Positions 34,127-57,778 of a stretch of 64,000 bases of DNA are shown here, in pieces. The notes below the pieces were generated by a model. It was not told where the DNA came from and searched no databases. It saw nothing but the letters and a program-made list of their open reading frames with translations. Position 1 is the first letter of the stretch. Every line of letters starts with the position of its first letter. The position numbers and the translations under genes are program-made. This DNA is from Halomonas sp. (GTDB lineage Bacteria > Pseudomonadota > Gammaproteobacteria > Pseudomonadales > Halomonadaceae): assembly GCF_017983445.1 (NCBI RefSeq), contig NZ_JAGOBJ010000002.1, positions 62,001 through 126,000 on the forward strand. The letters are read 5' to 3'.

Positions 34127-35479
34127 ATGGACATACGCAATAAAGCCAACCGTATTCGCCTGCTCAATTTCTCAACCCCTCAGATGCGTGCCTTTCATCT
34201 GTCGTGGTTTGCCTTTCATATCTGCTTTTTTGGCTGGTTCGGCATCGCGCCGCTGATGGCGGTCGTGCGTGAAGACCTTTCGCTGACCCAGACTCAAATC
34301 GGTAATACGATTATCGCTTCCGTCGCGATTACCGTGATCGTACGGCTATTGATCGGGCTGCTATGTGACCGACTGGGGCCGCGTAAAACCTACACTGGCC
34401 TGCTGGTTTTAGGTTCTATTCCCGTCATGAGCATCGGCTTTGCCGACAGTTTTGAAAGCTTTTTTCTGGCGCGCCTGGCGATTGGCGCAATTGGCGCTTC
34501 GTTCGTCATCACTCAGTACCACACCACCATGATGTTTGCGCCTAATGTGGTGGGCACGGCCAATGCGACCAGCGCGGGCTGGGGCAATTTAGGCGGCGGC
34601 ACCACGCAAATCCTGATGCCGCTTATATTCTCTGGAATGTTGATGCTGGGCGTTAATGAGGCACTCGGCTGGCGCCTTGCCATGGTAGTGCCGGGCGTGG
34701 TGCTGTTCATCACCGGCATTGGTTATTGGTTTCTGACCCAGGATGCGCCGGACGGTAATTTTAGCGACCTGCGTGCACGGGGTGAGCTTCCGGAAGCCAC
34801 CAAAGAGTACGGCGCGCTGAATAGTTTTCTCACCGCGGCGAAAGACGTTCGCGTGTGGGCGCTGTTTGTTGTCTACGGGCTGTGCTTTGGCGTTGAACTT
34901 ACGATCAACAATATTGCAGCTATCTACTTTTTTGATCATTTCAACTTAAGCTTGGCAACTGCTGGGTTAATCGCCGGGCTGTTTGGATTGATGAATATAT
35001 TTGCCCGCACGCTGGGCGGTGTTTTCTCGGACCTGTTCGCCAAGCAAAGTGGCCTGAAGGGCCGCGTGCGCTGGCTGTTTATTGCCCTGATCTGCGAAGG
35101 CATTGCGCTGATCGCATTTTCACAAATGCATATTTTGAGCCTTGCCATCGGCATCATGCTGGTCTTTAGCCTGTTCGTTCAAATGGCCGAAGGGGCAACG
35201 TTTGGCGTGGTGCCGTTTATCAACAAAAAAGCCTTGGGCGCCGTGGCGGGCATTGTGGGTGCCGGCGGTAATGTCGGCGCCGTCTCGGCGGCATTTTTGT
35301 TTCGAAGCGAAAGCTTAAGCTACCAACAGGGGCTTTTTTATCTGGGGCTGACCGTACTGGTGCTCGCCTCATGCGTACTGGCCGTTCGCTTTAGTGACGC
35401 AACAGAAGCGCAGGAAGCCAGCGCCTACCGTGATGCCGTGGGCGACGATACCGGTGCGGGGGCTCTTTCATTACGTTAA
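34127..35479 (+). CDS. narK: nitrate/nitrite MFS transporter, NarK/NasA family
   Basis: 450 aa with about 12 membrane helices. Nitrate-signature segments are visible: AIGASFVITQYHTTMMFAPN and NATSAGWGNLGGG in the first half, and AVAGIVGAGGNVGAVSAAF in the second. GAGG seven bases before the ATG is the RBS. It is followed 91 bp later by the nitrate-responsive antiterminator gene nasR, which indicates an assimilatory role: import of nitrate for the NasA/NirBD pathway at 49595-58345. A sigma-54 promoter motif lies 166 bp upstream. Confidence 0.93.
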   Translation: MDIRNKANRIRLLNFSTPQMRAFHLSWFAFHICFFGWFGIAPLMAVVREDLSLTQTQIGNTIIASVAITVIVRLLIGLLCDRLGPRKTYTGLLVLGSIPVMSIGFADSFESFFLARLAIGAIGASFVITQYHTTMMFAPNVVGTANATSAGWGNLGGGTTQILMPLIFSGMLMLGVNEALGWRLAMVVPGVVLFITGIGYWFLTQDAPDGNFSDLRARGELPEATKEYGALNSFLTAAKDVRVWALFVVYGLCFGVELTINNIAAIYFFDHFNLSLATAGLIAGLFGLMNIFARTLGGVFSDLFAKQSGLKGRVRWLFIALICEGIALIAFSQMHILSLAIGIMLVFSLFVQMAEGATFGVVPFINKKALGAVAGIVGAGGNVGAVSAAFLFRSESLSYQQGLFYLGLTVLVLASCVLAVRFSDATEAQEASAYRDAVGDDTGAGALSLR

Positions 35480-35570
35480 ACCGGCATTACGCTAAACCAA
35501 TCTTTTTACATCCCCGGCGGCGACTGCCCCGGGGAGTATTGATTAAGGCGGCGAGTAAAAGGAAATCATT

Positions 35571-36821
35571 ATGTCATCTGCCCAGCAGCTACTCTTAACC
35601 GCCATTCGTTGTGATATCGACAACCTGACCCATTTAGCGACGACCTCGGAAATCGTCGCGGATATTAGCCGCTTTATACACGTGCTCCAGCGTGAACGCG
35701 GCGCCTCGACGATCTACCTCGCCTCTCAAGGCAAACGCTTTAAAACTCAGCGCCGCGACTATCTCAAACATAGCCAGGAAGCTGAAATACTTATGCGCCA
35801 GCGTCTGGAAGCGCTGACTCAGGAAGTGCGCCCTCAGGGTGCCGCGCGTTTATTACGTCGTATCGCCGCCGTCTGGAACGCCTTGGACGATTTGGCCGCC
35901 TTGCGTAATGCCATTGATGTCTTGGCGATCTCCCCCGATGCCGCAACCCAAGCCTTTAACCATTTAATCGGCGGCTTACTGGCGATTGTGTTCGAAGCCG
36001 CCGACACCTCTGATGACCCGGACATTACCCGCGCGCTTGTAGCTATCTTTCATCTAATGCAGGGCAAGGAACTTGCGGGCCAAGAACGAGCCTGCGGTGC
36101 GTTTGGTTTTACCCAGGGTCACTTTGACGATATTCATCGCCAGTTACTCAGCCAGCTGGTTGAGGATCAACAGCGCTGCTTTGACACCTTCGTTGAATTT
36201 GCAACACCCGAAGCCGAGCTTGCCTGGCAGCAGGCGGTTTCCGCCAGCACATTGACCGGCATTGATCAGCTGCGTGAGGCTGCCTGCCAACCCACATCTA
36301 AATACGTCACCTCCAACGCCTTGGGTGAAACGTGGTACGAATTAACCACGCTGCGCATTGATGCACTTAAAACCGTCGAAGACGCTTTAAATACCCAGCT
36401 AGCGGCGCTTTGCTATCGTAAAATCACACAAGCTAAAGCCGCGCTTGAACATGCCAAAGCCAAGCCCAGACCCCATGCACCCGCCCCTTGTGAGCAATTA
36501 CTCGCTCTCAGCCCTACACAGCCGCTTGGAGAGTTGACCGCCAACGCGTTGTCTTCCCCCCTTGGCCGATCATTGATTGAACTCACTCAGGCCCAGTCCA
36601 GCCGTTTACAGGGATTGAGCGATGAATTGGAAAATACCCGCAAGGCACTGCGCGAACGCAAGCTGATTGAGCGCGCCAAAGGCTTGATCATGGCGCATCA
36701 GTCCATGACAGAAGAGGAGGCCTATCGCTTTCTGCGCAAGACCTCCATGGATCAAAGCAAAAGCATGGCGGATATGGCGCAGGCTATTCTTGACCTCTCT
36801 TCTATACTAAAAAAAGCCTAG
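35571..36821 (+). CDS. nasR: nitrate-responsive transcription antiterminator NasR (NIT-ANTAR)
   Basis: 416 aa. The N-terminal NIT nitrate/nitrite-sensing domain (about 20-290) contains FIHVLQRERGASTIYLASQG, typical of the family. The C-terminal ANTAR RNA-binding domain spans about 355-412 (RKLIERAKGLIMAHQSMTEE, then AYRFLRKTSM and SMADMAQAI). In Klebsiella, NasR binds a two-hairpin leader RNA in response to nitrate and prevents termination. Matching hexaloop hairpins overlapping terminators are present before nasC-nirBD and nasA in this window. No DNA-binding domain is seen. Confidence 0.93.
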   Translation: MSSAQQLLLTAIRCDIDNLTHLATTSEIVADISRFIHVLQRERGASTIYLASQGKRFKTQRRDYLKHSQEAEILMRQRLEALTQEVRPQGAARLLRRIAAVWNALDDLAALRNAIDVLAISPDAATQAFNHLIGGLLAIVFEAADTSDDPDITRALVAIFHLMQGKELAGQERACGAFGFTQGHFDDIHRQLLSQLVEDQQRCFDTFVEFATPEAELAWQQAVSASTLTGIDQLREAACQPTSKYVTSNALGETWYELTTLRIDALKTVEDALNTQLAALCYRKITQAKAALEHAKAKPRPHAPAPCEQLLALSPTQPLGELTANALSSPLGRSLIELTQAQSSRLQGLSDELENTRKALRERKLIERAKGLIMAHQSMTEEEAYRFLRKTSMDQSKSMADMAQAILDLSSILKKA

Positions 36822-50468: not shown

Positions 50469-53207
50469 TCAGGCCACTTCTGTATAAGATGCTTGCTTAG
50501 CACGCGCATGTGAACGCTCCTCTTCAATCAGGGACTTCAATTCAGGCAAACAACTACCGCACTGTGTTCCGCAGGCAAGCCGTGCGCCCAGCGCTTCAAC
50601 GCTGGTATCGCCAGCGCGAATGGCATTAACAATCGCCGTTTGGCCCACCTGGTGGCAGCTGCATACTACGGGGCCAGTATCGGCGGCGCCATCTTCACAT
50701 CCCGCCAGTAGCCGACGCCGGTGCTTGTCGCTTATGGTCGTTTCATTAAAACGCGCCTCAAGCCAGGCAAGGCCGGGCAATTCGCGCGGCGGGCCGACCA
50801 TCAGCCACCAACGCAGCTTGCCGTTCACCACGGCCGCAGCGCGCAAACGGCTATTGCCGCGGTCTTCACACCACACACTAGCCCCATCGGGTAGCCACGT
50901 AGCCAGTAGCGCCAGCCAGTCATGAACCGGCCTTGCATCTGCCAGCTGCCAGCGCTGACAGCCCTGCATGGGCACGCGCGCCCAGTAATCGCTTGTGCAC
51001 CAAGGAGGCGCTTCCTGCGGGCTATTATCGCCTAATGATTGGGCAATCAACAGCGTTGCCTCCCAAACCGTGTTCAGCGGTGCTAGCGCTACGGCACCAT
51101 GTTTGGCTTCCGGCTGGCCTGAAACGGGGTCGGTGATGGCCTTCAGCATGGTGCCGCTACGCGCCGATTTACTGAACGCATCGCTCCAGTGCATGGGAAT
51201 AAATACCTCGCCACGCCGCTGGGCATTCGAGGTTCGCACTCGTCCCCGGTACTCGCCCCTGACGGCGGACAATACTGCCAACTGCTGGTCGCCAATACCA
51301 TAGTGAGCAGCATCGCTTGGGTGGAGTTCAATAAACGGCTCATAGCGATGATTCATCAGCCGGGGCGCACGGGCTGTGCGCGTCATGGTGTGCCACTGAT
51401 CACGAATTCGACCAGTATTCAGGCGCAGCGGGTAGGCGTCACTCAAGCGTTGCTCCGGCAAGCGCGGCGTTATGGCGATGAAGTTGGCGCGCCCATCAGG
51501 CGTGGCGAATTCGCCGTCTTCAAATAACCGCGCCGTTCCGTGAGGCGCTGAAGATGTCACCGGCCACTGAATCGGCGCCAGCGCATCGTAGCCCTCTCGC
51601 CCAAGCCCTACCAGGCCAGAGATATCGAACAGCCGCTTGCTCTCCCCTTCATTTTCGTAGCCGGAAAGTCTGGCGTGCTCGTCGAAGATTTCGTGGGGAT
51701 GGGCGTAGGCGAATGCTTCCCCAAAGCCCAGCCGCTTGGCGGCTTCGCAGATGATCCACCAGTCATGGCGCGCCTGACCGGGTGCGGGTAATAAACCGCG
51801 CTGGCGAGAAATACGCCGTTCGGAATTAGTGACCGTGCCGTCTTTCTCCGACCATCCGGAGGCAGGCAGAATGATATCGGCGTAAGCCAACAGGTCGGTA
51901 TGACTTGCGCACTCGGACACAATCACCAATGGGCATTTTTCAAGCGCACGCCGTACGCGGGCGGCATCCGGCAGGCTGACCGCCGGATTGGTGGCCATTA
52001 TCCAGAGCGCCTTGATTTCCCCGCGTTCCACCGCTTCAAAAAGCTCAATTGCCTTATAACCGGGCGCCCGGGGCAATTCGGGCATTAACGTTTCAGTCGC
52101 CCAAAAGCGGGTCATCCGATCCAAGGCGCCTGGCGTATGGTAGTCCATATGCGCGGCCAACTGGTTGGCAAGCCCACCCACTTCGCGTCCGCCCATGGCA
52201 TTGGGCTGGCCAGTGATCGAGAAAGGCCCCGCGCCGGGCAAGCCAATTTTGCCGCCCGCCAGGTGGCAGTTAATAATCGCATTGCACTTATCGGTACCGC
52301 TTGAGGATTGATTGACCCCCTGGGAGTAAAGCGTCACTACATGAAGCTGGCTGGCAAACCAATAATAAAAGGTCTCCAGCCGCTCCGGGTCGATATCACA
52401 CATGGCCGCCACGTCATGAATGTTGTAGTTGCTCGCGGCCAGCAACGCTTCGTCGAAACCTTGTGTATGGCGGTCCAGGTAGAGCTGATCCAGCTTGTTA
52501 TTCTCCGCCATCCAGGCCAGCAGGCCGCTGAACAGTACCGCATCGCTTCCTGGCGCAATGCCCAGGTAAAGATCGGCAATTTCGCAGCTGTCGGTCACAC
52601 GCGGGTCGATCACCACCACCCTCATCAGCGGGTTGCGCGTTTTGGCGACCTTCAAGCGCTGATAAAGCACTGGATGATTCCAGGCCAGGTTCGAGCCCAC
52701 CAGCACCACCAGTTCAGCCTCTTCAATATCTTCATAGTTGCAGGGAACGGCATCGGCACCCAGCGAGCGCTTATAAGCCGCCACGGCGGAGGCCATGCAA
52801 AGCCGCGAGTTGGTATCCAGGTGCGGCGTGCCCAAAAAGCCTTTAAACAGCTTATTGGCCACATAGTAATCTTCAGTTAATAGCTGTCCCGAAAGATACG
52901 CACCGACTGACTCAGCGCCATAGGTCGTGCGAGTCGCCTGTAATCGCTCAGCCAGGGTGGCTAACGCCACATTCCAGTCAACCGCGTGCCCGTCGACCAT
53001 AGGCGTAGTGAGACGGTCATGGAGGCCAAGGGTTTCATGAAGTGCAGAGCCTTTGACGCAGAGTCGTCCAAAGTTGGCGGGGTGGTCGCGGTCGCCGTCA
53101 ACGGCGCAGATAGTGTCGTCAGCCACGGTAGCGGTTACACCGCAGCCGACACCGCAATAAGGGCACGTCGTGTTTACTTTACAAGCCGAGCGTGTGGCCT
53201 GGGACAT
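50469..53207 (-). CDS. nasA: assimilatory nitrate reductase catalytic subunit
   Basis: 912 aa molybdopterin enzyme reducing nitrate to nitrite in the cytoplasm. The N-terminal [4Fe-4S] motif is CPYCGVGCGV with a later Cys in FGRLCVKG. Mo-bis-MGD domains follow (TNSRLCMASAV, GSNLAWNHPV, TDKCNAIINCHL). The C-terminal about 60 residues form a BFD-like [2Fe-2S] domain (CSCHQVG and CGTQCGSC). No Tat signal is present, as expected for an assimilatory enzyme. The start at 53207 has GGAGG eight bases upstream. Controlled by a sigma-54 promoter and an attenuated leader. Confidence 0.95.
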   Translation of the reverse strand: MSQATRSACKVNTTCPYCGVGCGVTATVADDTICAVDGDRDHPANFGRLCVKGSALHETLGLHDRLTTPMVDGHAVDWNVALATLAERLQATRTTYGAESVGAYLSGQLLTEDYYVANKLFKGFLGTPHLDTNSRLCMASAVAAYKRSLGADAVPCNYEDIEEAELVVLVGSNLAWNHPVLYQRLKVAKTRNPLMRVVVIDPRVTDSCEIADLYLGIAPGSDAVLFSGLLAWMAENNKLDQLYLDRHTQGFDEALLAASNYNIHDVAAMCDIDPERLETFYYWFASQLHVVTLYSQGVNQSSSGTDKCNAIINCHLAGGKIGLPGAGPFSITGQPNAMGGREVGGLANQLAAHMDYHTPGALDRMTRFWATETLMPELPRAPGYKAIELFEAVERGEIKALWIMATNPAVSLPDAARVRRALEKCPLVIVSECASHTDLLAYADIILPASGWSEKDGTVTNSERRISRQRGLLPAPGQARHDWWIICEAAKRLGFGEAFAYAHPHEIFDEHARLSGYENEGESKRLFDISGLVGLGREGYDALAPIQWPVTSSAPHGTARLFEDGEFATPDGRANFIAITPRLPEQRLSDAYPLRLNTGRIRDQWHTMTRTARAPRLMNHRYEPFIELHPSDAAHYGIGDQQLAVLSAVRGEYRGRVRTSNAQRRGEVFIPMHWSDAFSKSARSGTMLKAITDPVSGQPEAKHGAVALAPLNTVWEATLLIAQSLGDNSPQEAPPWCTSDYWARVPMQGCQRWQLADARPVHDWLALLATWLPDGASVWCEDRGNSRLRAAAVVNGKLRWWLMVGPPRELPGLAWLEARFNETTISDKHRRRLLAGCEDGAADTGPVVCSCHQVGQTAIVNAIRAGDTSVEALGARLACGTQCGSCLPELKSLIEEERSHARAKQASYTEVA

Positions 53208-53225
53208 ACTGATTTCCTCCCGCTT

Positions 53226-53276
53226 AAAAAGCAAAAGGCGCCCAAGCGAGCCTCAAAAGAAGCCTGCCTGGACGCC
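53226..53276 (-). terminator. attenuator terminator in the nasA leader
   Basis: On the minus strand GGCGTCCAGGC (53266-53276) pairs along all 11 positions, counting G-U pairs, with GCTTGGGCGCC (53237-53247). TTTTGCTTTTT follows. It ends 19 bases before the nasA ATG, so it must act as an attenuator. Its 5' arm also forms the hexaloop hairpin at 53267-53287; the two folds exclude each other. Confidence 0.72.
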
Positions 53277-53305
53277 GTTGTCTCAGGGACACCTGCACCG
53301 GTGCC
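53267..53305 (-). promoter_or_regulatory. ANTAR-type hairpins in the nasA leader
   Basis: Proximal hairpin (53267-53287): a 7-bp stem with one bulged A closes the loop AACGGC (A1, G4) and includes most of the terminator 5' arm. Directly 5' of it (53288-53305), GGCACC and GGTGTC close a six-base loop GGTGCA, which has G4 but not A1. NasR binding would favour these hairpins and prevent termination, as known for ANTAR regulators. Confidence 0.6.
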
Positions 53306-53453: not shown

Positions 53454-53468
53454 GCAAGGCCTACGCCA
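53454..53468 (-). promoter_or_regulatory. sigma-54 (-24/-12) promoter of nasA-cobA
   Basis: On the minus strand TGGC-GTAGGCC-TTGC matches the RpoN core with correct spacing. Transcription would start near 53441, giving a leader of about 235 nt containing the hairpins and attenuator. Confidence 0.72.
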
Positions 53469-53598: not shown

Positions 53599-53613
53599 GC
53601 ACCAATAGCGTGC
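53599..53613. promoter_or_regulatory. NtrC-like dyad between nasA and nasC promoters
   Basis: GCAC-CAATAGC-GTGC fits the NtrC half-site arrangement GCAC-N7-GTGC. It lies about 100-150 bp from both sigma-54 promoters, a usual enhancer distance. A second inverted repeat, GGTGC-N7-GCACC, is beside it at 53578-53594. Confidence 0.5.
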
Positions 53614-53712: not shown

Positions 53713-53727
53713 TGGCTGATAAATTGC
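53713..53727 (+). promoter_or_regulatory. sigma-54 (-24/-12) promoter of nasC-nirBD
   Basis: TGGC-TGATAAA-TTGC matches the RpoN core with correct spacing. Transcription would start near 53739, about 25 nt before the first leader hairpin. Confidence 0.75.
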
Positions 53728-53763
53728 CCTGTTGTAATGGTTAAATAAATTCAAGCTCAGCTG

Positions 53764-53834
53764 GCAGCCAACGGTGGCTGCTCTGCACTAAACCCAATGA
53801 CGGTTTTAGTTTCAGCTACCGGGCAACGAAGCCC
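53764..53834 (+). promoter_or_regulatory. three ANTAR-type hexaloop hairpins in the nasC-nirBD leader
   Basis: Hairpin 1 (53764-53781): GCAGCC-AACGGT-GGCTGC. Hairpin 2 (53787-53810): a 9-position stem with one mismatch closing AATGAC. Hairpin 3 (53821-53834): GGGC-AACGAA-GCCC. Each loop has six bases with A at 1 and G at 4, the ANTAR recognition pattern. Hairpin 3 takes the first bases of the terminator 5' arm, so protein-stabilised hairpins would prevent the terminator from forming. Target of NasR by inference. Confidence 0.78.
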
Positions 53835-53892
53835 CTGATACTGCGTTCCTGGCAATCCATTTGCCCGGGGCGCTGTATCAGGGGCTTTTTTT
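53829..53892 (+). terminator. attenuator terminator in the nasC-nirBD leader
   Basis: A 13-bp perfect outer stem (AAGCCCCTGATAC, 53829-53841, with 53875-53887) encloses an inner GGCAA/TTGCC hairpin and runs into seven T residues. It lies about 90 bp before the nasC ATG. CCGGGCAA (53819-53826) is also complementary to 53861-53868, giving a possible alternative antiterminator stem. Confidence 0.85.
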
Positions 53893-53981
53893 GTTGGGTA
53901 TTTTCTCAAGCGCTGCGCCACTACAGCGTTTATCGCGGCAAGGTACTTGCAGCCAACGCGCTAAACAGTAAGGAGCAACCC

Positions 53982-55265
53982 ATGATCGCTATCTCTCGGT
54001 GCTCGCCTGATGATCACTTAGTCATTATTGGCAACGGCATGGCGAGCCATCGACTGCTCGAGGCCGTCGTTAAACTGCCTCATCGACCCAAGCAGATAAC
54101 GGTGATTGGCGCAGAAGCATCTCCTGCCTATAACCGGATACTGCTATCACCACTGCTCGCCGATGAAATGCCGTCTAGCGCCCTCTCACTGCGGGATGCT
54201 CAGTGGTACGCCACACAGAAGATTACCCTGCACCTTAATGAGCGTGTGCTGAAAATCGACCGCAAAGAGCAGCGCGTGGTAACCCCCAACCGAACGTTGG
54301 CTTATGACCGCCTGGTGATTGCCACTGGCTCGCGCCCAACGCTACCCGAGGTACCCGGCATTGGCCTTGACGGCGTGCATGGGTTTCGTACCCTGCAAGA
54401 TGCCGACACGCTCGCCAAGCTTGCCTTACAGGGCGGTAAGTGTGTCGTGGTAGGTGGCGGCCTGTTAGGGCTAGAAGCTGCCGAAGGGCTTCGCAAACGG
54501 GGCGCCAGCGTCAGTGTTTTACAGCGCAGTGAACGGTTAATGAATCGTCAGCTGGATAGCAGGGCCGCCCGGCTACTTGAAACGACACTTACCCAGCGTG
54601 GCTTGACCATCTTAACCAACGCACGCATCCGTCACTTTGAAGACGATGGCGCTGGCAGCTTAGCCGCTGTTGTACTGGAGGATGGTCAGCGCCTGCCTGC
54701 CCAGAGTGTCATCGTGGCGACCGGCGTTACGCCTAATTCAGAGCTGGGCTATCAGGCAGGCCTTGCTACCCAACGCGCCATCATGGTCGATGGCACGCTC
54801 ACCACTTCAGATCCGCATATTCATGCCTTGGGCGAGTGCTGTCAGTTCGAGCAGCACACCTACGGCCTGGTCGAGCCGATCTGGCGCCAGGTGGATGTTC
54901 TGGTCAACACGCTATGCGGTGATGGCAGCGCCCGCTATCTAGAGGCACCGACCGCCACCAAGCTCAAGATCAGCGGCGTGGCTCTCTACGCATTCGGCCC
55001 GACAGAGGCGGCGCCAGAGCATGAGGTGTTGCACTACAACGATCCGGAAAATGGCGACTACCGCCGCCTATTGCTACGCGACGGAAGGCTTGAAGGCGCC
55101 GTGCTGTATGGCGATACCCACTCTGGCCCCTGGTATTTCGCTCAGGCGCTAGCCAAAACCGATCTTGGCGCGTGCCGCCAGGCGTTGCTGTTTGGTGAAG
55201 CCGACGCCAACGCCCTGCTGTTTGATCACCAACCCACTCCCTTATCGACACTGGAGGCAGCTTAG
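53982..55265 (+). CDS. nasC: FAD/NAD(P)H electron-transfer subunit of assimilatory nitrate reductase (NasC-like)
   Basis: 427 aa pyridine nucleotide-disulfide oxidoreductase resembling the N-terminal half of NirB. FAD-binding LVIIGNGMASHRLLEAV is at the start, NAD-binding CVVVGGGLLGLEAAEGLRKR near residue 150, and YDRLVIATGSRP between. It probably passes electrons from NADH to NasA. It lacks the C-terminal [2Fe-2S] domain found in Klebsiella NasC; NasA here carries a BFD domain that could receive the electrons. RBS AAGGAG. nirB begins two bases after the stop. Confidence 0.85.
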   Translation: MIAISRCSPDDHLVIIGNGMASHRLLEAVVKLPHRPKQITVIGAEASPAYNRILLSPLLADEMPSSALSLRDAQWYATQKITLHLNERVLKIDRKEQRVVTPNRTLAYDRLVIATGSRPTLPEVPGIGLDGVHGFRTLQDADTLAKLALQGGKCVVVGGGLLGLEAAEGLRKRGASVSVLQRSERLMNRQLDSRAARLLETTLTQRGLTILTNARIRHFEDDGAGSLAAVVLEDGQRLPAQSVIVATGVTPNSELGYQAGLATQRAIMVDGTLTTSDPHIHALGECCQFEQHTYGLVEPIWRQVDVLVNTLCGDGSARYLEAPTATKLKISGVALYAFGPTEAAPEHEVLHYNDPENGDYRRLLLRDGRLEGAVLYGDTHSGPWYFAQALAKTDLGACRQALLFGEADANALLFDHQPTPLSTLEAA

Positions 55266-55267
55266 CC

Positions 55268-57778
55268 ATGTCCACCACCTCTAAACGCAACGTGATTATT
55301 ATTGGTAACGGTATGGTCGGCCACCACCTGGTCGAGCAGCTGGTTGAAAACGGCGCGATGGCGCAGATGAACGTCACCGTGTTTGGCGAAGAGAGTTATC
55401 GTGCCTACGACCGCGTGCATCTTTCCGAATACTTCAAAGGCCGCGACGCCGAAGCGCTGGCGCTATGCGATGGTGATTACTACGCAAGCCATGGCGTGAC
55501 GTTCAACAGCAGCGAAGCGGTGATGTCCATCGACCGCGCTGAAAAAACGGTCACGACCGAACACGGCCAATACGCCTACGATCACCTGGTGCTGGCCACC
55601 GGCTCCTACCCTTTCGTGCCGCCCATTCCCGGTAACGACCGCGAAGGCTGCCTGGTATATCGCACGCTGGACGACCTGGACGCCATTCGCGATGCGGCGC
55701 AAAGCGCGGCCACCGGCGTGGTAGTAGGCGGCGGCCTGTTGGGCCTGGAAGCGGCCAATGCGCTGCGCGGATTGAACCTGGAAACTGCGGTGATCGAGTT
55801 CACCCCACGCCTGATGCCCATGCAGGTGGATGCCGAGGGCGGCGAACTGCTGCGCGAAAAAATCGAAGCCCTGGGTGTTCAGGTACTCACCGAGCGGGCC
55901 ACTCAGCGCATTGAAGACGGTGAGGCAAGCCGCCATCGCATGGTCTTTCAGGATGACAAGATACTGGAAACCGATCTGATCGTGTTCTCGGCGGGTATTC
56001 GCCCGCGTGATCAGTTGGCCCGCGAGTGTGGCCTAGAAATAGGCGAGCGCGGCGGCGTGGTGATCAACGATCAATGCCAAACCAGCGACCCCTCGATTTT
56101 AGCCATCGGCGAAGTGGCGCTGTGGAATCAGAGTATTTTCGGCCTGGTGGCGCCTGGCTATCAGATGGCAAAGACAGCGCTTTCGACGCTCACCGGTGGC
56201 GATGCTTCTTTTATCGGTGCTGACATGAGCACCAAGCTTAAGCTATTGGGGGTAGACGTCGGCTCGATTGGCGATGCCCACGGCAATCAGAACCCCGGCG
56301 CGCGGATGTTTCGCTACCTTGACCCCCTCACCCAGATTTACCGCAAGATGGTGGTCTCAAGCGACGGCAAGAAGCTTTTGGGCGCCATGCTGGTGGGCGA
56401 TAACAGCATCTATGATACCTTGCTCCAGTACTACGCCAACGGTATCGAGCTACCCAAAGAGCCCGCCTCGCTGATGTTGCCGCAAAGCGGCGCTGCCCCG
56501 GTACTTGGCCCGGATGCACTGCCGGAAACGGCGATGATCTGCTCGTGTCATAACGTTACCAAGGCCAGCATTTGCGCGGCCATTGATGCAGGTGCTGGCG
56601 ACCTAGGCGCCGTTAAAGGTGACACCCGCGCCAGCACCGGCTGCGGTGGCTGCGCGTCACTTTTAAAAAGCGTAGTGGACCATGAGCTGGCCGCACGTGG
56701 TGTCGAGGTGGACACGTCAATTTGTGAGCACTTTGCCTACACCCGCCAAGCGCTTTACGACATTGTACGCGTAGAAGGCATCAAGACCTTTAGTGAGCTG
56801 ATGGAAAAACATGGCGCGCCCGGCACCCATCACCTGGGCTGTGATATCTGCAAGCCCGCCGTGGGCTCCATCCTTGCCTCCTGCTTTAACGAGCCGATTA
56901 CCGACGCCGCGCATATCCCGTTGCAGGATACCAACGACACCTTCATGGCCAACATGCAGAAGAACGGCACCTACTCGGTGGTACCGCGCATTGCCGGGGG
57001 CGAAATTACCCCGGAGAAGCTCGTGGTACTGGGACAGGTAGCGCAGAAGTACGGCCTGTACACCAAAATCACCGGCGGCCAGCGGATTGATCTGTTCGGC
57101 GCCCGTCTGGAAGATCTGCCCGATATCTGGGGCGAGCTGATTGAGGCCGGCTTTGAAACCGGCCACGCTTACGGCAAGTCACTTCGCACGGTGAAATCCT
57201 GCGTGGGCAGCACTTGGTGTCGCTACGGCGTGCAGGACAGCGTAGGCATGGCGATCAAGCTTGAGAACCGCTACAAGGGTCTTCGCGCACCGCACAAGAT
57301 CAAGTTCGGTGTTTCCGGTTGTACCCGTGAGTGTGCCGAAGCGCAAAGCAAGGATATCGGGATTATCGCCACTGAAAACGGCTGGAACCTTTATGTGTGT
57401 GGCAACGGCGGCATGCGCCCCCGCCATGCCGAGCTGTTTGCCACCGATCTTGACGATGAAACACTCTACCGCACCATTGATCGTTTTCTGATGTTCTACG
57501 TGCGCACGGCGGATCGCTTGCAGCGCACCTCGGTATGGCGGGAAAACCTGGAAGGCGGGCTGGATTACCTTAAAGAGGTGATTCTTTACGACAGCCTGGG
57601 CATGGGCGAGGAACTGGAGCGCCAGATGCAAACCGTGGTGGATAACTACCAGTGCGAATGGGCAGGCGCCATCAGCGACCCGGACAAGCTCAAGCGCTTT
57701 AGAAGCTATGTCAACGACAACCGCCCCGACCCATCGATCATCATGACCAGCGAGCGCGGCCAGCTACGGCCTGCCTAG
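55268..57778 (+). CDS. nirB: nitrite reductase [NAD(P)H] large subunit
   Basis: 836 aa cytoplasmic siroheme enzyme reducing nitrite to ammonium. Domains in order: FAD/NAD oxidoreductase (IIIGNGMVGHHLVEQLVENG; VVGGGLLGLEAANALRG), BFD-like [2Fe-2S] around 425-475 (ICSCHNVTKA and STGCGGC), then sulfite/nitrite reductase ferredoxin-like halves. [4Fe-4S]-siroheme cysteines are in SCVGSTWCRYG and SGCTRECAEAQ. Siroheme depends on CobA encoded at 49595. Paired with nirD, with a 186-bp spacer holding a palindromic repeat. Confidence 0.96.
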   Translation: MSTTSKRNVIIIGNGMVGHHLVEQLVENGAMAQMNVTVFGEESYRAYDRVHLSEYFKGRDAEALALCDGDYYASHGVTFNSSEAVMSIDRAEKTVTTEHGQYAYDHLVLATGSYPFVPPIPGNDREGCLVYRTLDDLDAIRDAAQSAATGVVVGGGLLGLEAANALRGLNLETAVIEFTPRLMPMQVDAEGGELLREKIEALGVQVLTERATQRIEDGEASRHRMVFQDDKILETDLIVFSAGIRPRDQLARECGLEIGERGGVVINDQCQTSDPSILAIGEVALWNQSIFGLVAPGYQMAKTALSTLTGGDASFIGADMSTKLKLLGVDVGSIGDAHGNQNPGARMFRYLDPLTQIYRKMVVSSDGKKLLGAMLVGDNSIYDTLLQYYANGIELPKEPASLMLPQSGAAPVLGPDALPETAMICSCHNVTKASICAAIDAGAGDLGAVKGDTRASTGCGGCASLLKSVVDHELAARGVEVDTSICEHFAYTRQALYDIVRVEGIKTFSELMEKHGAPGTHHLGCDICKPAVGSILASCFNEPITDAAHIPLQDTNDTFMANMQKNGTYSVVPRIAGGEITPEKLVVLGQVAQKYGLYTKITGGQRIDLFGARLEDLPDIWGELIEAGFETGHAYGKSLRTVKSCVGSTWCRYGVQDSVGMAIKLENRYKGLRAPHKIKFGVSGCTRECAEAQSKDIGIIATENGWNLYVCGNGGMRPRHAELFATDLDDETLYRTIDRFLMFYVRTADRLQRTSVWRENLEGGLDYLKEVILYDSLGMGEELERQMQTVVDNYQCEWAGAISDPDKLKRFRSYVNDNRPDPSIIMTSERGQLRPA

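Follow-up and report, generated by a model that had tools for sequence, protein, structure and literature searches.

The window, i.e., the whole 64,000-nucleotide stretch of Halomonas sp. DNA analyzed here, belongs to a 3.9-Mb genome; judged by nasC, the nearest named species are Vreelandella populi, V. zhanjiangensis, Halomonas colorata, and H. citrativorans (88 to 92% identity). Region 53713 to 53892 sits 5′ of a gene coding for a nasC-like FAD/NAD(P) reductase (53982 to 55265, plus strand; Pfam Pyr_redox_2 and Rubredoxin_C), which is the first gene of the operon under the leader studied here. The protein resembles the N terminus of NirB in NCBIfam with a score below the family cutoff, and the name nasC is that of the original prediction. 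It is followed by nirB (55268 to 57778, plus strand), encoding the nitrite reductase large subunit, which scored over the cutoff with both NCBIfam models NF011565 and TIGR02374. A gene for an assimilatory nitrate reductase-like catalytic subunit (50469 to 53207, minus strand) diverges from this operon; its product carries the Pfam domains Molybdopterin, Molydop_binding, and Fer2_BFD and its NCBIfam matches, to the formate dehydrogenase and NasC models, stay under the cutoff. The open reading frame (ORF) caller placed the start of this gene at a TTG codon (53234, minus strand) located at the 3′ foot of a leader terminator, but the ATG at 53207 (MSQATRS), lying behind GGGAGG, seems the likelier start.

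A NarK-family-like transporter gene, whose product falls just below the cutoff of the NarK model, and nasR together occupy positions 34127 to 36821. The nasR gene (35571 to 36821, plus strand) encodes a NIT-ANTAR antiterminator with an N-terminal NIT domain (Pfam E value of 2.8e-51) and a C-terminal ANTAR domain (1.8e-20). Both Pfam and the alignment to 4AKK, a chain named nitrate regulatory protein (E value of 3.1e-51), give this domain order, as a NasR-type regulator requires, and NasR is the single ANTAR match in its own genome at an E value of 0.001. The distance between nasR and the leader, predicted to be about 17 kb, was measured at 16.9 kb.

Upstream of the leader, positions 53713 to 53727 (plus strand) match perfectly the pattern TGGC-N7-TTGC, which we take to be the signature of a sigma-54 promoter, here that of the nasC-nirB operon. 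This pattern was found in its perfect form within 130 nt upstream of the loop of the first leader hairpin in 66/66 genus leaders, compared to 1% of 125-nt pieces drawn at random from the window. The pattern GCAC-N7-GTGC, presumably an NtrC-type site, occurs as an exact match at 53599 to 53613 (plus strand), between the divergent promoters, against a background of 0.005 per 300 nt in the window. It was also present upstream of the first hairpin in 55 of the 66 leaders, further out than the sigma-54 pattern. A second perfect TGGC-N7-TTGC match, read in the window alone, lies at 53454 to 53468 (minus strand) and would serve the divergent nitrate reductase transcript.

Anatomy of the nasC-nirB leader

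The original prediction described three successive hairpins of the ANTAR-binding type in this leader, the last one overlapping a terminator. All three loops (AACGGT, AATGAC, and AACGAA) were indeed found, each with A at loop position 1 (A1), G at position 4 (G4), and a C:G closing pair. The first NasR hexaloop hairpin, designated P1 (53763 to 53782, plus strand), has a 7-bp stem and the loop AACGGT at 53770 to 53775, whereas the second NasR hexaloop hairpin, P2 (53821 to 53834, plus strand), has a 4-bp stem and the loop AACGAA at 53825 to 53830; the assignment of both is based on conservation. Between them lies a linker hairpin (53783 to 53815, plus strand) with the loop AATGAC at 53796 to 53801. 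The intrinsic terminator (53828 to 53892, plus strand) comprises 21 paired positions with one mismatch, followed by seven T residues at 53886 to 53892. As predicted, P2 and the terminator 5′ arm have bases in common, the first base of the arm being the P2 loop G4 (53828), and formation of P2 excludes the terminator.

Folding of partial and complete transcripts was consistent with this exclusion. In a transcript ending at 53836, P2 had a probability of 0.99 and the middle hairpin a probability of 0.71, and in the fold of the full leader the terminator prevailed, with a P2 probability of 7e-6. The 146-nt stretch folded 6.85 standard deviations better than its shuffles, and the 91-nt hairpin part taken alone gave a z score of -1.85, equalled by 10 of 200 shuffles. 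A scan for stems of at least 4 bp, which covered the window but is not exhaustive since it misses the minus-strand leader described below (P2′ stem of 3 bp, P1′ without A1), returned one dual hexaloop with an overlapping terminator. One of 10 Markov-shuffled plus strands also yielded such an arrangement, with 8 or more pairs in the overlapping helix, and the weight is therefore carried by conservation and not by the single-sequence match. Neither that scan nor inspection by eye detected a dual hexaloop with a terminator upstream of the MFS transporter gene (34127). No Rfam family matched the window at the gathering threshold. At E values up to 10 on 701 bases, there were 11 matches, all under their gathering scores; these were mostly small-RNA or microRNA models, several of which fell on the terminator, and included a 21-position piece of the narK model located at P1.

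Conservation of P1, P2, and the terminator

A search for nasC over 82 genomes of the genus gave a match below an E value of 1e-100 in 68 of them, the best match in the other 14 being 6.6e-57 or weaker. The DNA upstream of nasC in these 68 genomes corresponds to 67 distinct leaders. Under fixed rules, all 67 have P2 and all but L140 have P1 (66/67); a stricter rule demanding at least 5 pairs in the P1 stem was satisfied by 63/67. The same rules succeeded by chance in 9/1980 (0.5%; P2) and 22/1980 (1.1%; P1) shuffled stretches. Since the search rule itself prescribes A1, A2, and G4, their tally of 56/56 adds nothing independent, and the evidence lies in the detection rate. All 66 leaders having both hairpins contain a terminator with 8 or more pairs that overlaps P2, and its 5′ arm begins within P2 in 56/56 distinct leaders tallied, so that P2 and the terminator are mutually exclusive. 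An apparently invariable arm start at loop G4 turned out to be an artifact of the lower limit of that search: over a wider range, 29 of the 56 arms, including that of the window, start at G4, 20 start at A1, and 7 start 1 to 2 bases further upstream.

A dual-hexaloop ANTAR motif is recognized by two hairpins of at least 3 bp with A1/G4 hexaloops and by an ANTAR protein in the same genome, all of which are present here. NasR co-occurs with the operon as well: it was matched in 69 of the 82 genomes, i.e., in 68/68 of those with nasC and in G068, which carries a diverged NasR without nasC, while the remaining 13 lack both. These observations bear out the prediction of a NasR-type ANTAR antitermination leader before nasC-nirB, and, as far as sequence comparison can tell, P1 and P2 make up the dual-hexaloop ANTAR motif that is classically bound by NasR.

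Two observations count against control by NasR through attenuation. The NasR match is split in two pieces in G030, G038, G058, and G074 and contains stops in G031, which may reflect assembly or decay in these five genomes. In addition, G011 has P2, nasC, and a NasR match over the full length, but its leader, L140, is without P1. In L140, a sigma-54-like TTGGCTAGATAATTGCTT stands close to P2, as though P1 had been deleted, and this leader is possibly a case of natural P1 loss.

Outside the genus, 57 loci were surveyed (L019 to L081 minus six in the window's genus). P1, P2, and a terminator were obtained for 11, all belonging to the Halomonadaceae, and 8 of the 19 Halomonadaceae loci failed the rules (L022, L025 to L027, L032, L036, L037, and L042). 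Among nasC leaders of Neptuniibacter, Marinobacterium, and similar genera, nine showed a P2-like hairpin over a terminator and no P1 by the rules used (L044, L046, L049, L050, L052, L074, and L075, also L051 and L053), with the loop AAAGGC or AACGGC; these leaders have either a divergent P1 or a single-hexaloop design. At the place of P2, a GAAGAC loop was seen by eye in the nasC leaders L025 to L027, L036, and L037 and by script in L019, L038, and L039. A1 of the P2 loop thus appears to be replaceable by G, since GAAGAC has G at position 1 along with G4. The stretches around NasR in nine other genomes gave one credible hairpin pair (L156, linker of 15 nt) and two weak ones (L155), and no pair was detected around NasR in the other seven.

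The hairpin between P1 and P2

The linker separating P1 from P2 is 38 nt long. Its hairpin has a core at 53787 to 53810, made of 8 pairs with one C·U mismatch at the third position below the loop, and is extended by CTG pairing with CAG (53783 to 53785 with 53813 to 53815). The hairpin takes up 33 nt of the linker and leaves only CTACC (5 nt) unpaired if it forms.

Given its loop, this hairpin was originally proposed to be one of three ANTAR hairpins forming a graded or redundant switch. As a true third docking site, it could let NasR step from P1 over the middle loop to P2, or let two dimers share three loops, making the switch graded or faster. The AATGAC loop itself has the appropriate A1, A2, G4, and C:G closing pair, and the same sequence recurs in the loops of P1 (L129), P2 (L145), and, in the divergent leaders, P1′ (L038 and L039). 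A lone hexaloop can be bound, and EutX reportedly possesses an additional one (PMC8934654). Moreover, an A1/G4 hexaloop closed by C:G occurs in 3/52 distinct linkers (the window, L088, and L089) against 0.17 expected, a number reached in 0/200 shuffle rounds, but shuffling also destroys the linker hairpin and 0.17 therefore understates chance where a hairpin is usually formed. The original prediction named missing conservation of the three loops in related genomes as a ground for its refutation, and this applies to the middle loop: the P1 and P2 loops are kept in relatives, but the middle loop is not. A graded or redundant switch of three ANTAR hairpins is thus not supported. While P1 and P2 are nearly invariant, an A1/G4 middle loop was found in none of the five nearest relatives, which have ACGAAC (L083 and L084) or 7-nt loops (L085, L086, and L087). 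L088 and L089 are sister species whose loop, ACAGGC, is a different one with A1/G4 and without A2, reducing the three cases to at most two events, and the stem in the window has its C·U mismatch beneath just two pairs. We consequently regard a third docking site in the stepping or two-dimer form as quite unlikely, and the third-site reading as a whole as carrying a low probability; the AATGAC loop of the window is probably coincidental. A related scenario, that a spacer hairpin became a third docking loop in the window's lineage, giving a P1-relay-P2 antiterminator with two short hand-over steps, and did likewise, independently and with another loop, in L088/L089, strikes us as unlikely too.

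A further part of the original prediction was an 8-bp alternative pairing of 53819 to 53826 with 53861 to 53868 (plus strand). The base complementarity does exist at these positions, but it is complete in only 5 of 57 distinct sequences, all from the window's clade, and reaches at least 7 of the 8 pairs in 13/57. Such a pairing might act as a second, protein-free antiterminator that makes read-through graded. It is perfect in the window, L083, and L084, is kept with G·U pairs in L086 and L087, and is part of the minimum-energy fold when the transcript ends at 53868. Four nucleotides later (53872), it is gone from that fold; it is also incompatible with P2, and, of the eight members in the window's clade, three (L085, L088, and L089) carry a mismatch in it. 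On these grounds, we rejected the pairing as an antiterminator, a role to which we attach a nearly negligible probability, and it is probably a by-product of the terminator apical stem resembling the P2 5′ strand.

The bases after the T run can also pair with the P2 5′ strand, a pairing that stood out in the folds. In many leaders of the genus (e.g., L094), GTTTGGTGCTCAAG is unchanged at this place, and the window has GTTGGGTATTTTCT at 53893. This candidate was dropped after a swap control that shows no covariation, own pairs giving -7.1 kcal/mol versus -6.9 kcal/mol for species-swapped pairs; own pairs were better in 35/56 and ranked within the best 5% of shuffles in 11/56, the window being among the 11.

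How the middle hairpin itself has been maintained was examined in the window's clade. A nasC protein tree of 29 of 30 loci (L091, on a short contig, was omitted) groups the window with its five nearest relatives (88 to 92% nasC identity; support of 100/99) and places L088 and L089 as the pair sister to this group. Across the window and these five relatives, the stem is largely kept, with CTG pairing with CAG and AACCC-like with GGGTT-like sequences, the outer CTG pairs being weak in L085. In the clade alignment (7 distinct rows), 3 pairs of the linker helix have changed on both sides and 90% of the cells are paired. When the window's own fold was used as the structure, no slid version and 0/500 shuffles attained the covariation score of the structure as a whole, and the count of pairs changed on both sides was reached by 17/500 shuffles and one slid version. 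The covariation of the linker helix in this clade is thus modest, and we read it as suggesting that the hairpin is selected in the window's clade while its loop is free to change.

Other linkers in the genus have a different sequence, often GCGTT...AACGC, and range from 12 to 62 nt over 52 distinct linkers, 24 of which exceed 25 nt. When folded with P1 and P2 held, they leave a median of 6 nt unpaired (0 nt in L095 and L098, via an odd fold). Among the 51 linkers longer than 14 nt, 44 keep 12 unpaired nt or fewer, and seven keep 14 to 23, i.e., L085 (from the window's clade), L094, L103, L113, L132, L145, and L147. Linkers folded better than the mean of their own shuffles in 43/52 cases, with a P value of 0.05 or less in 19/52. 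After clustering at 80% identity, better folding held in 19 of 24 clusters (sign test, P = 0.003), and the effective shortening of the linker relative to shuffled linkers, seen in 15/24, was not significant (P = 0.15). At 60% identity (11 clusters), folding was better in 8/11 (P = 0.11), and neither folding nor shortening was significant. In the Halomonadaceae outside the genus, 11 of 19 loci show both hairpins, eight of them with linkers of 6 to 14 nt, and in two more, linkers of 21 and 25 nt are reduced by folding to 3 and 8 nt unpaired. L045, with a linker of 78 nt, was put aside, its P1 candidate having no A at loop position 2.

Published work on related systems bears on these lengths. The eut linkers measure 5 to 12 nt, and linkers of 3 or 14 nt are reported to cause a drastic loss of induction in Enterococcus faecalis (PMC3369931), just as a 20-nt linker extension is described as abolishing EutV antitermination in vitro (PMC8934654). 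For NasR, the reported affinity is about 1 µM with P1P2 and about 12 µM with P2 alone, both hairpins being needed for full affinity (PMC7496416). A survey of actinobacterial ANTAR RNAs accepted linkers of 2 to 25 nt (PMC8164766). The raw linker of 38 nt falls outside both ranges, but 5 unpaired nt remain if the hairpin is formed. Given the EutV linker limits and the need of NasR for both hairpins, a 38-nt linker should fail unless it is folded.

We therefore propose that the middle hairpin may act as a spacer, a role resting mainly on the covariation in the window's clade, the comparison within the family, and the published EutV linker work. The competing explanation is that the hairpin has no role, NasR tolerating long linkers and the structure being incidental. 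This would account for the wide variation in linker length and sequence (12 to 62 nt), for the seven long linkers with 14 to 23 unpaired nt, and for an effective length that is not clearly below that of shuffles once linkers are clustered; the last two points count directly against a spacer, as does the acceptance of linkers of 2 to 25 nt in the actinobacterial survey (PMC8164766). An absence of function fits poorly with the covariation in the window's clade, the 19/24 clusters that fold better than shuffles, the short linkers in other Halomonadaceae and in the divergent leader, and the linker sensitivity of EutV, and we consider it rather unlikely.

The reading that we favor, and hold to be probable, is that the leader is a NasR-controlled attenuator of the classical dual-hexaloop ANTAR kind whose linker forms a spacer hairpin. 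When nitrogen is limiting, NtrC and sigma-54 would initiate transcription near position 53739, as suggested by the promoter pattern. Without nitrate, the nascent RNA would form the terminator (53828 to 53892), and transcription would stop before nasC-nirB. In the presence of nitrate or nitrite, the NIT domain of NasR would release the ANTAR domains, which would dock on P1 and then on P2. With P2 held, the terminator 5′ arm, which starts from the P2 loop G4, would be blocked, and the middle hairpin, by absorbing 33 of the 38 linker nucleotides, would keep P1 and P2 5 unpaired nt apart. The A1/G4 loop of the middle hairpin in this lineage is most likely incidental to such a mechanism.

The divergent leader and comparison with known systems

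A second NasR-type leader precedes the nitrate reductase gene at 53205 to 53305 (minus strand); like the sigma-54 and NtrC-type sites, it was missed in the original prediction. Its first hairpin, P1′ (53288 to 53305, minus strand; GGCACC-GGTGCA-GGTGTC), has a hexaloop with G at position 1 and G4, and a similar stem recurs in relatives. P2′ (53271 to 53282, minus strand; GAC-AACGGC-GTC) is separated from P1′ by an unpaired 5-nt linker, CCTGA. The terminator (53226 to 53276, minus strand) starts from G4 of P2′ and comprises 17 pairs with one mismatch allowed, ending in a T-rich tail at 53226 to 53236, TTTTGCTTTTT.

To follow this leader in relatives, 83 sources were given, of which 67 had a readable reductase start, many of them being the same locus counted twice (named contig and genome). 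P2′ and the terminator were found in 62 of the 67, 48 with P1′ and 14 without, and none of the elements was detected by the rules in the other five (L020, L029, L033, L035, and L106). Among the 48 loci with the full set, 20 hairpin combinations are distinct, and P1′ is doubtful in some (e.g., L031 and L110, with gaps of 17 and 20). Linker gaps in these 20 sets were 4 to 6 nt in 14, 9 to 10 nt in 4, and 17 to 20 nt in 2. The P1′ loop has A1 in 8/20 and G4 in 17/20, the latter count being favored by the way the hairpins were picked. Position 1 of this loop is degenerate in the window's genus, while P1′ loops are canonical in Onishia (L019, L038, and L039). Such degeneracy fits the EutV crystal structure, for which contacts to G4 and none specific to A1 are reported (PMC8934654). 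Both divergent operons are probably under NasR control.

Published work is divided on how a single ANTAR dimer serves two hexaloops, with both simultaneous binding and successive hand-over proposed (PMC3369936, PMC8934654). Linkers of 12 to 62 nt in one genus, most of them folded into hairpins, amount to a natural experiment on the spacing rule, and the upper limit of 25 nt used in the actinobacterial survey (PMC8164766) would drop 24 of the 52 genus linkers. The spacing question becomes directly testable in the window, where one NasR faces two leaders, one with a folded 38-nt linker and the other with a plain 5-nt linker. A search of the PMC literature on the linker hairpin, the third loop, and the divergent leader found no paper.

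The closest known counterpart is the nasF/NasR system of Klebsiella oxytoca, which likewise has a NIT-ANTAR regulator, nitrate assimilation genes, and Ntr control, as well as P1 and P2 with A1/G4 hexaloops and a P2 overlapping an intrinsic terminator (PMC7496416, PMC5424462, PMC3369936); control of the Klebsiella nas operon is described as combining Ntr with NasR (PMC5424462). Compared to nasF by its published description, the present system has nasR 17 kb away, a 38-nt linker with a hairpin of its own, a nasC-nirB operon, and a second similar leader facing the opposite way before the nitrate reductase gene. The eut/EutV system of E. faecalis shares the dual hexaloop, the conserved closing pairs, and the exclusion of the terminator, but its linkers measure 5 to 12 nt and EutV is a phosphorylated response regulator (PMC3369931). 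As for the EutX/rli55 small RNA, EutX resembles the window's leader in having a single hexaloop beyond the dual motif (PMC8934654), but it is a sequestering small RNA and not a three-hairpin leader, and G4 is the one feature given there for its extra loop. By such comparisons, the predicted attenuator is ordinary in its two docking loops and unusual in its folded linker and in being one of a divergent pair.
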